A DNA stretch of 64,000 bases from contig NZ_VORB01000001.1 of NCBI RefSeq assembly GCF_007995015.1, positions 434,001 to 498,000 on the forward strand. The letters run 5' to 3'. Under the pieces are notes generated by a model. It had not been told where the DNA came from, searched no databases, and saw nothing but the letters and a program-made list of their open reading frames with translations. The DNA is from Luteibaculum oceani (lineage in GTDB: Bacteria; Bacteroidota; Bacteroidia; Flavobacteriales_D; Luteibaculaceae). The position numbers and the translations under genes are program-made. Positions 5,841 through 7,556 of the stretch are shown one piece after another (positions within the stretch are counted from its first letter, which is position 1; each line of letters starts with the position of its first letter).

Positions 5841-6311
5841 TTAGTTAGGCCAGATGGTATTGTCGTCGTTGTCGTACAATGGCCCCCATTGTATTTCTGA
5901 AACTTTCCCTTGGTTAAACCAAAAGTTGATGCTCTTTTCGTCTATTGTAAGCACGTGCTGAGTTTCCTCATCATCAATGCTCCATTCTTCCATTTCGCCA
6001 CTTCCAAAGTTGTTAGCAGAAATAAATTCGTCTAACTCTTCTTTAGTTAGTCCGATTACTTCTTTTCCAGCTAACTTAAAGGAAGCATCACTTACCGAAA
6101 TAGTGCTCATTTTCCAATTTTCATCCTTGTCGAATGAAATAGATAGCTCTAGATTGTCGTAGTGCCAGGCTTCGTTAAGAACTTCGTCGGTATCCTCATC
6201 GGCGTATTGCTCAATTTCATCTGGCTCGCCAAATTGTTGCTTAACTTCTTCTCTGGTTAAACCAAACTTAAGCTCATCAAGTCCGGTACCCGGTAGTATT
6301 TCTTTATTCAT
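5841..6311 (-). CDS. Hypothetical BamE/SmpA-like small acidic protein
   Basis: A 156-residue soluble acidic protein with no signal peptide. The segment LKFGLTREEVKQQFGEPDEIE near residues 13-32 resembles the helix-turn of BamE/SmpA-type folds (G-(ML)-(ST)-xxEV-xxxFG-x-P). Unlike true BamE it has no lipobox, so it is probably cytoplasmic. A second similar segment, VIGLTKEELDEFI near residue 85, suggests an internal duplication of this unit, each followed by strand-forming stretches (AWHYDNLELSISFD; THVLTIDEKSINFWF-like). The role is unknown. It has its own terminator and stands apart from its neighbours. Confidence 0.55.
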   Translation of the reverse strand: MNKEILPGTGLDELKFGLTREEVKQQFGEPDEIEQYADEDTDEVLNEAWHYDNLELSISFDKDENWKMSTISVSDASFKLAGKEVIGLTKEELDEFISANNFGSGEMEEWSIDDEETQHVLTIDEKSINFWFNQGKVSEIQWGPLYDNDDNTIWPN

Positions 6312-6371: not shown

Positions 6372-6509
6372 CTAGCGCTTTGGACAGCTCTTACAACGCT
6401 TACCCTTTTTGTATTTCTTACAACACTTCTTCTTAAGAGATAATTCTCTAATCTCGCACAAAAAGCAAGGAGGAAGAGGGTTTTGGGTAGCAATGTTCAG
6501 CCGATTCAT
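6372..6509 (-). CDS. 45-residue Cys/Lys-rich miniprotein
   Basis: The ATG at 6509 opens a 45-codon frame ending in TAG at 6372-6374. The N-terminal half contains PPCFLCE. The C-terminal half is KKKCCKKYKKGKRCKSCPK-R, with six cysteines in all and mostly lysine/arginine. The spacing CxxC...CC...CxxC could hold a zinc ion or an Fe-S site, and the basic character suggests nucleic-acid or membrane contact. I believe similar CC-K-Y-KKGK-C-K-CP tails occur in small Bacteroidota proteins, but I cannot check this here. The gene lies alone between the BamE-like gene and the GH113-like gene. No function is assigned. Confidence 0.55.
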   Translation of the reverse strand: MNRLNIATQNPLPPCFLCEIRELSLKKKCCKKYKKGKRCKSCPKR

Positions 6510-6581
6510 GCTACAAAAATAATCAAATTTGAATCGTTCTAAATAAGGGTGTGAAAATTTTAATGGGCCACAACTTGAAAC

Positions 6582-7556
6582 TTACAGTTTGTGAAACCAC
6601 AATTTTATAGTGTTTTCTGCTTTTTTATACTGGGGAGAAAAGCCTAAACTTTTGCCTTTATTTTTTACCCTCGGAAACCATTTCCATACAAAAACTCCAG
6701 CAACGTAATCTTGATCTTGCAGTGCCTCAAAAAAAGTGTTCCACGCCAGAGACTGACTTTCACCATTGAATGGAACTTCGGTGTAGGACTCCCATGGTTT
6801 TTCCCAAGGGTTTTCTATACTGCGATATCCTATTTCAGTAAAGATTACGGGTAGGTTCAAACTGTCAGAAAGCGAATTCATTGTTTGGTGGTAAGCTTTC
6901 CATTTGGTGGGAGCTTTGGAGGGAGATTCTAACGGGAAATAAGCATTTACACCTATGTAATCGAGCAAGTGCCAGTAGGGAAAACGATTGTATTCATCCC
7001 AGTTGGATGCATAAACGAGTTTACCGGAGTACACTGCTCGGCAGGACGCAATTAAATCTTCAAAATACGCGGGGTGTTCTTGCCAAAGAGATTGCATTTC
7101 ATTGGCAAGGCAAAAAAGTGGAAGTTTGTGCTTTTCAGAAAGCTCTGCAAATTGTACAATGTACTTTTTGTAATCGTTAAACCATTTGGCCCAAATTGCT
7201 GGGCTAGGAAATTGGTGATGTCCCGTAAACCCTCCAGGATTGAGCCATAAATGTGGCTTAACAATTGGGGTTAATCCATATTTTTTTGCCGCCTTAATGC
7301 AGGAATCAATGCCTTCATATGATTCTCCATCCCACTTCCAGTCTTCATTAAATCTAAATTCTCCAGTTTCACCGTTTGCATAACTGTAGGGCATTAGCGT
7401 TATGGAATTGGCGCCAAGGATTTTAATTTCCTTCCAGCTCGTATCAGAAGGTAATTTAACGCTTCCCACTAAAGACACCCCTTTGTACATCATTTGCTGG
7501 GCATCGCAGCTCAACAGTATAAGGCCAAGGATACTTAGTAAAAGCAGCCTAATCAT
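6582..7556 (-). CDS. GH113-like glycoside hydrolase lipoprotein
   Basis: A 324-residue protein with a lipoprotein signal (LILLSC, lipidated Cys17). The body reads as a (beta/alpha)8 clan GH-A hydrolase: KGVSLVG opens strand 1, IVKPHLWLNPGG lies in the middle, Glu153 in LANEMQS is the probable acid/base, and Glu241 in FTEIGYRS the probable nucleophile. The FTEIGYRS signature is typical of family GH113 beta-mannanase-like enzymes. The protein is near the usual length for the catalytic domain alone. It is probably anchored in the outer or inner membrane and cuts beta-mannan or a related glycan. It is the last gene of the purN-rnhA-TonB operon and overlaps the acyltransferase gene by 8 bases. Substrate specificity is inferred only from the motif. 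Confidence 0.75.
   Translation of the reverse strand: MIRLLLLSILGLILLSCDAQQMMYKGVSLVGSVKLPSDTSWKEIKILGANSITLMPYSYANGETGEFRFNEDWKWDGESYEGIDSCIKAAKKYGLTPIVKPHLWLNPGGFTGHHQFPSPAIWAKWFNDYKKYIVQFAELSEKHKLPLFCLANEMQSLWQEHPAYFEDLIASCRAVYSGKLVYASNWDEYNRFPYWHLLDYIGVNAYFPLESPSKAPTKWKAYHQTMNSLSDSLNLPVIFTEIGYRSIENPWEKPWESYTEVPFNGESQSLAWNTFFEALQDQDYVAGVFVWKWFPRVKNKGKSLGFSPQYKKAENTIKLWFHKL

Follow-up and report, generated by a model that had tools for sequence, protein, structure and literature searches.

The locus studied here raises the question whether a frame of only 45 codons in the genome of Luteibaculum oceani encodes a functional protein and, if so, what this protein does. The window, i.e., the whole stretch of 64,000 nucleotides that was analyzed, comprises positions 434,001-498,000 of NZ_VORB01000001.1 (GCF_007995015.1, forward strand). 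The answer developed below is an iron-starvation-induced miniprotein of Bacteroidota whose four core cysteine residues hold iron, most likely as a [2Fe-2S] cluster; we give this reading about an even chance. The regulation is strongly supported by the sequence data, from which we infer the metal and the function. The argument is based on the following features.

6372..6509, minus strand: coding sequence of the miniprotein, ATG and 45 codons followed by a stop codon (open reading frame list, homologues and pN/pS)
6381..6434, minus strand: conserved core, residues 26-43, KKKCCKKYKKGKRCKSCP, CC-x8-C-x2-C-P with Tyr three after CC (alignment)
6526..6544, minus strand: Fur-box-like site ATTTAGAACGATTCAAATT, starting at -35 relative to the ATG, 3 mismatches to the Riemerella Fur box
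6514..6521, minus strand: likely Bacteroidota -7 promoter element TATTTTTG, 4 nt before the ATG (sequence and general consensus)

The Miniprotein Frame

The frame sits in a 270-bp gap between open reading frames 6582-7556 and 5841-6311, both on the minus strand. The first of these is a GH113-like glycosidase gene and the second gave weak DUF3862/BamE-like matches below the cut-off. The deduced protein MNRLNIATQNPLPPCFLCEIRELSLKKKCCKKYKKGKRCKSCPKR carries six Cys in its 45 residues, as the initial annotation had stated without naming a strand, and its basic tail ends in KKKCCKKYKKGKRCKSCPKR. The composition had been considered unlikely to arise by chance. The number of cysteines was at least six in 3 of the 340 window open reading frames of 30-60 amino acids and in 41 of 23,956 frames from 50 first-order Markov copies of the window; the cysteine count alone is not remarkable in this window. 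The pattern CC-x8-10-C-x2-C-P, however, was present in none of the 23,956 Markov-copy frames and, among the 340 short window frames, in the miniprotein only.

Conservation of the Miniprotein Family

A search of 40 genomes with the single sequence (E up to 1) revealed matches in 22, the own genome included, and a clear tail with the same cysteine core in 13 of the 39 other genomes. A profile (E up to 0.01) matched 96 of the 199 genomes searched within the order. Each of these had a single match except G062, which has a second, weak one; the match in G076 (E 0.0054), which contains stops, is not convincing. A phylum-wide draw yielded profile matches in 23 of 392 genomes (E up to 1e-4). Named holders, with at least 15 loci, include Parapedobacter, Pedobacter, Sphingobacterium, Taibaiella and Edaphocola, and further holders among the matches listed are a Saprospiraceae MAG, a Cytophagales MAG and one Thiomargarita MAG. 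In the Thiomargarita MAG (L060:2698-3060) the same Lys/Cys tail ends a protein of 121 residues with a sub-cut-off DUF2283 match, which represents either a fusion or contamination of the MAG.

The core CC-x8-10-C-x2-C-P was present in all 60 profile-hit loci that were fetched by their coordinates. The rows of the 199-genome search left aside were G163, G192, G097, G084, G139, the weak second match of G062, and G076. In the alignment of 60 members M1, C29, C30, C39, C42 and P43 are invariant, and K26, K27, K31 and K34 are kept in at least 90%. The larger set of 103 members was extracted with a filter that required CC and CxxCP, so that members having lost these cysteines could not enter it. For this set L096 was merged with L095 (same protein), L131 has the core and failed the length filter of the script, and, from the phylum draw, L190 was skipped as already known while L191 repeats L059. 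Leaving L126 out of the spacing counts, the distance from CC to the next cysteine is x9 in 68, x8 in 32 and x10 in 2 of 102 members. The residue three after CC is Tyr in 91, Phe in 6, His in 3 and Trp in 2. The N-terminus is poorly conserved and holds 0 to 4 cysteines before the core in these 102 members. Its CxxC is not fixed in the relatives. Hence, of the two CxxC pairs and the CC pair noted initially, CC and the CxxCP of the core belong to the family, while the N-terminal CxxC is no family feature.

Over 67 pairs we determined a pS of 0.697, a pN of 0.164 and a pN/pS of 0.23, for pairs that are not independent and were picked at a protein identity of at least 60%, which lowers pN. Therefore, the miniprotein is under purifying selection. 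The window protein had no match in Pfam, and the 60 members gave scattered matches to 14 families, each in 1 or 2 of 60 (best CUSTOS, E 9e-4, 1 of 60). Matches in PHROGs were weak and scattered only, and no sequence match was found among solved structures. AlphaFold2 with 60 sequences predicted no confident fold (pLDDT 59.2, pTM 0.20).

Thus, the proposal of a conserved Cys/Lys miniprotein was confirmed by homologous frames in relatives, and neither of the outcomes named beforehand as speaking against it, the absence of a homologous frame or the loss of cysteines, occurred for the core. The initial annotation suspected that the family may be underannotated; no family model for it was found in the searches above. 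A chance or relict frame without function might be suspected from the very short length, the poorly conserved N-terminus and the missing family model. Against this stand the matches in almost half of the genomes of the order, the low pN/pS and the spacing of the promoter boxes described below, which is tied to the start codon, and we regard such a frame as practically excluded.

A Predicted Fur Box Upstream of the Gene

The decisive evidence was provided by the promoter. The initial annotation had overlooked it, and with it the connection of the gene to Fur and a further palindrome associated with iron. The Fur box ATTTAGAATTATTCTAAAT of Riemerella anatipestifer is a prediction derived from genes under Fur control; in EMSA, binding of the purified protein was demonstrated for four promoter fragments (PMC5609570). 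The Riemerella gene rhuH has a Fur box 25 bp upstream and is reported to be up in a fur mutant, in a box mutant and in low iron (PMC11967795). Therefore, a role of such Fur boxes is supported.

We scored the Riemerella consensus, its centre base ignored, in the 130 nt before the start codon. The best upstream site had 3 mismatches or fewer in 70 of 103 members, where dinucleotide shuffles predicted 0.3 of 103, and in 0 of 325 upstream regions of neighbouring open reading frames from the same loci. Among the phylum-draw members, 14 of 21 possessed such a box (one of the 21, L191, being the repeat of L059). Relative to the start codons chosen by the script (for L004 an upstream GTG may be the true start), 48 members have a box beginning at -26 to -18, and in 46 of them TTTG lies just 5' of it. 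The box would consequently cover the presumed transcription start, which is a repressor position. The Bacteroidota -7 promoter consensus is TAnnTTTG. Since the presumed -7 element lies so close to the ATG in the window (6507-6521), the mRNA may be leaderless or nearly leaderless. In several relatives the presumed -7 element is similarly close to the start codon.

In G091 and G123, which were picked because their miniprotein copy has a perfect core box, the perfect TTTAGAATNATTCTAAA occurs once per genome, before the miniprotein gene. Sites with one mismatch in these genomes lie near genes for DUF4856 lipoproteins, a cytochrome b561-like gene and a multihaem cytochrome c gene. As the only perfect core Fur box in the two scanned genomes, this site may mark a tightly Fur-controlled gene that could serve as a useful reporter of Fur activity.

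The window copy shows a moderate match with 3 mismatches, and its own genome, which encodes one FUR protein (PF01475, E 2.2e-31), contains no perfect Fur box. A scan of this genome with up to 2 mismatches yielded 7 palindromic sites, the box of the window copy not among them, versus 4 for the reversed pattern, and some of them lie inside genes; the own-genome scan is therefore weak by itself. One of the 7, a Fur-like box with 2 mismatches, lies upstream of a SufA-like gene, 5 nt from its ATG, and is accompanied by the second palindrome. Neither box was detected at the thresholds used in 17 of 103 members. Taken as a whole, the upstream regions indicate that the miniprotein gene very probably belongs to the iron regulon, and it would add a widespread gene to the iron response of Bacteroidota.

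Fur-box-like sites with 1-2 mismatches were also observed upstream of cytochrome c genes at L213 and L154, in two genomes of which one is that of the window. These genes look like alternative complex III.

A Second Palindrome Linked to Iron Genes

A perfect TACC-N8-GGTA was found upstream of the gene in 24 of 103 members (0.15 in shuffles) and in 2 of 325 neighbour genes. It lies at -51 or -52 in 16 of the 24 members, and the window copy of the gene does not possess it. Exact copies of the long form AATACC-N8-GGTATTG were searched in two genome sets. In the first set of 8 genomes 19 sites were obtained (control 1; none in one genome), in the second set of 20 genomes 28 sites (control 1; none in six genomes), and 12 sites are common to both sets, leaving 35 distinct ones. 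The carriers include L144, L157, L135, L151, L221 and L139. In the own genome the palindrome sites are G000:C1:500114-500134 and G000:C9:85593-85613.

The gene that follows the long form was the miniprotein gene at 10 sites, a share inflated by the selection of most genomes for a palindrome at the miniprotein, which leaves the other targets unaffected. These were DUF4856/imelysin (9), SufA-like (6), FeoA/FeoB (3), TonB receptor (2), HmuY-like (2) and DUF6607 (1) genes, and 2 sites lie inside open reading frames. Thus, 33 of the 35 distinct sites precede genes of these kinds. The downstream gene was read on either strand, and where genes diverge from a site the iron-linked one was chosen (e.g., L144, L220, L225, L235). 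The assignments were checked by Pfam for 17 sites and by sequence or coordinates for the miniprotein sites; two further DUF4856 sites were assigned by coordinates and the remaining sites by likeness. In the HmuY-like pair one member is below the Pfam cut-off and the other, with a start that is not readable, was judged by eye. DUF4856 occurs in 59 of 95 holders of the miniprotein versus 24 of 104 non-holders (Fisher p 3e-8, G076 dropped and kinship between genomes ignored).

In Bizionia the MerR-like protein MliR is described as an iron activator, and deletion of mliR lowers imelysin-like, TonB receptor, Feo-linked and Fe-S assembly genes (PMC9478572). Because these genes overlap with the palindrome targets, MliR is one candidate for the factor that recognizes the second palindrome. 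The accessible part of that paper gives no MliR binding site. A palindrome near -51 would fit a general activator site rather than the spacer site of a MerR-type regulator. The second palindrome provides a searchable marker for a putative iron regulator.

Comparison with FhuF and Other Systems

FhuF contains the motif C-C-x10-C-x2-C (PMC11965169), and the title of a reference cited there calls it an iron-regulated protein. The C-terminus CCQRYRLPDVQQCGDC of E. coli FhuF (tail region RRTCCQRYRLPDVQQCGDCTLK) and the miniprotein stretch CCKKYKKGKRCKSC share CC...CxxC and a Tyr three after CC. In contrast, FhuF has 262 amino acids and the miniprotein 45, which leaves no place for the large N-terminal reductase domain, and the miniprotein is much richer in Lys. 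The x10 spacing of FhuF was likewise absent from the window copy (x8) and present in the 2 members mentioned above.

Among 18,950 NCBIfam models (E up to 10, 60 members) only two siderophore-iron reductase families were touched, TIGR03950 by 48 of 60 members (best E 5.4e-4) and TIGR03951 by 3 of 60 (best E 0.28). At the curated cut-offs no member was a hit for TIGR03950, TIGR03951 or PF11575, and in NCBIfam the window protein reached 9.1 versus the 137.9 bits demanded. PF11575 (FhuF_C) gave no match at all among the 60 members; at genome level, none of 6 genomes and 3 of 14 control genomes gave a score above its cut-off. TIGR03950 scored in 0 of 296 genomes of the phylum, and no control genome scored either. 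For a direct comparison 10 FhuF regions were fetched in addition to that of E. coli, and 6 passed the motif filter of the script. The tail profile scored 14.5 against these 6 C-termini. Full column shuffles of the profile (60) gave a mean of 7.0 and a maximum of 14.0, and 60 shuffles of the non-Cys columns with the cysteines fixed a mean of 9.5 (sd 2.1) and a maximum of 15.2. The score thus lies within the range of the Cys-fixed shuffles, and the likeness to FhuF largely consists of the cysteine pattern and the aromatic residue. Judged by these comparisons, the family does not qualify as FhuF, and common descent is not supported.

Bfd, the bacterioferritin-associated ferredoxin, is a small Fe-S protein that serves to mobilise iron when cells are starved of it. 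The Bfd domain (PF04324, Fer2_BFD) was matched by none of the 60 members; within the order, a single genome of 199 contained it, as part of long frames. The resemblance is confined to the proposed role as a small Fe-S protein for iron mobilisation.

The miniprotein is also similar by description to FbpA, FbpB and FbpC of B. subtilis, Fur-regulated small basic proteins suggested to act as RNA chaperones, of which FbpB has 48 amino acids (PMC7430163); the kept four-Cys core is a property of the miniprotein. It might accordingly be an FbpB-like, Fur-controlled helper of an iron-sparing response, with the Lys-rich tail binding RNA and a zinc or Fe-S site serving only to fold the protein. The small size, the basic character, the link to Fur and the four well-kept Lys positions would suit such a helper. 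However, apart from M1 only the four Cys and the Pro are invariant, and RNA binding has not been demonstrated even for FbpB, as the review states (PMC7430163). We consider this reading unlikely.

Another Cys-rich and iron-linked protein is among those reduced in the Bizionia mliR mutant (PMC9478572). By its name it is a membrane protein, and the miniprotein shares with it the richness in Cys and the iron link. A hydropathic stretch of 19 residues with a mean of at least 1.6 was detected in 2 of 103 members, and the window copy reaches 0.28.

Metallothioneins have Cys next to Lys and vary in their number of Cys. The miniprotein displays both traits, with its 0 to 4 additional cysteines before the core, and could resemble them as a zinc or copper buffer that keeps wrong metals away from iron sites once the import systems for iron are switched on. 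But the nearly fixed spacing of the four cysteines, the kept Pro and the aromatic residue suggest a defined site instead of a loose thiolate cluster. No metallothionein family appeared in the Pfam list of the 60 members (E up to 10, within the filters of HMMER), and the genes sharing the boxes are iron and SUF genes. A buffer of this kind is therefore quite improbable.

Proposed Function

The initial annotation had spoken of a minimal metal or nucleic acid binding module. The kept CC...CxxCP is most naturally read as a metal site; nucleic acid binding is conceivable for a Lys-rich protein and found no direct support. Since the gene is linked to iron and the cysteine pattern resembles that of FhuF, a [2Fe-2S] cluster or another iron site is the best guess, and we put iron or Fe-S binding by the core on a level with its opposite. 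Zinc would fit the four cysteines equally well.

According to the proposed mechanism, Fur would leave its box when iron falls and the miniprotein would be made, with the second palindrome, in its activator-like position, possibly adding activation. Iron would then be bound by the CC-x8-10-C-x2-C-P core, its most likely form being a [2Fe-2S] cluster like that of FhuF. The Lys-rich surface of the miniprotein may dock on an acidic partner, i.e., a ferritin, a SUF protein or a ferric chelate, and the docked miniprotein would pass on an electron, iron or a cluster. The miniprotein would thereby do the job done elsewhere by FhuF or Bfd. Such a role as reductase or carrier is a tentative assignment. 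Somewhat more speculative is the full proposal that roughly 20 residues form a stand-alone [2Fe-2S] module, which resembles the FhuF tail without the reductase and acts as a Fur-controlled electron or cluster carrier mobilising iron in starvation in these Bacteroidota, an order almost devoid of the Bfd domain, its promoter revealing AATACC-N8-GGTATTG as a second iron box. If true, the miniprotein would be among the smallest natural iron-sulphur proteins. Should the core hold a cluster, the 45-residue peptide would make the minimal requirement of an FhuF-type iron site directly testable.

The literature search, whose scope excluded most subscription papers and preprints, yielded no paper containing the core peptide strings or a description of the family. 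The gene is a widespread one without a model in the family libraries searched, and encodes a Fur-linked small protein with an FhuF-like cysteine pattern.

Gene Neighbourhood

The most frequent neighbour cluster occurred in 32 of 103 loci, which are Flavobacterium-like ones, a number that undercounts neighbours because many loci span about 1.5 kb on each side (flanks 1.5-3 kb). Small proteins often act as regulators. The miniprotein, small as it is, might therefore sense iron or clusters by binding Fur, the factor of the second palindrome or SUF proteins and in this way tune its own regulon, with which its gene has both boxes in common. However, the flanks of 1.5-3 kb contain no neighbour gene that is conserved across lineages and would hint at a partner. 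We judge a regulator to be rather improbable and favor the iron-holding miniprotein.

In Flavobacterium-like loci (L047 and about 30 similar ones) the miniprotein gene is followed, at a median distance of 12 nt, by the start of the gene for another protein (31 of 103 loci). This protein, which has 174 amino acids and no Pfam match in L047, is a possible lineage-specific operon partner.
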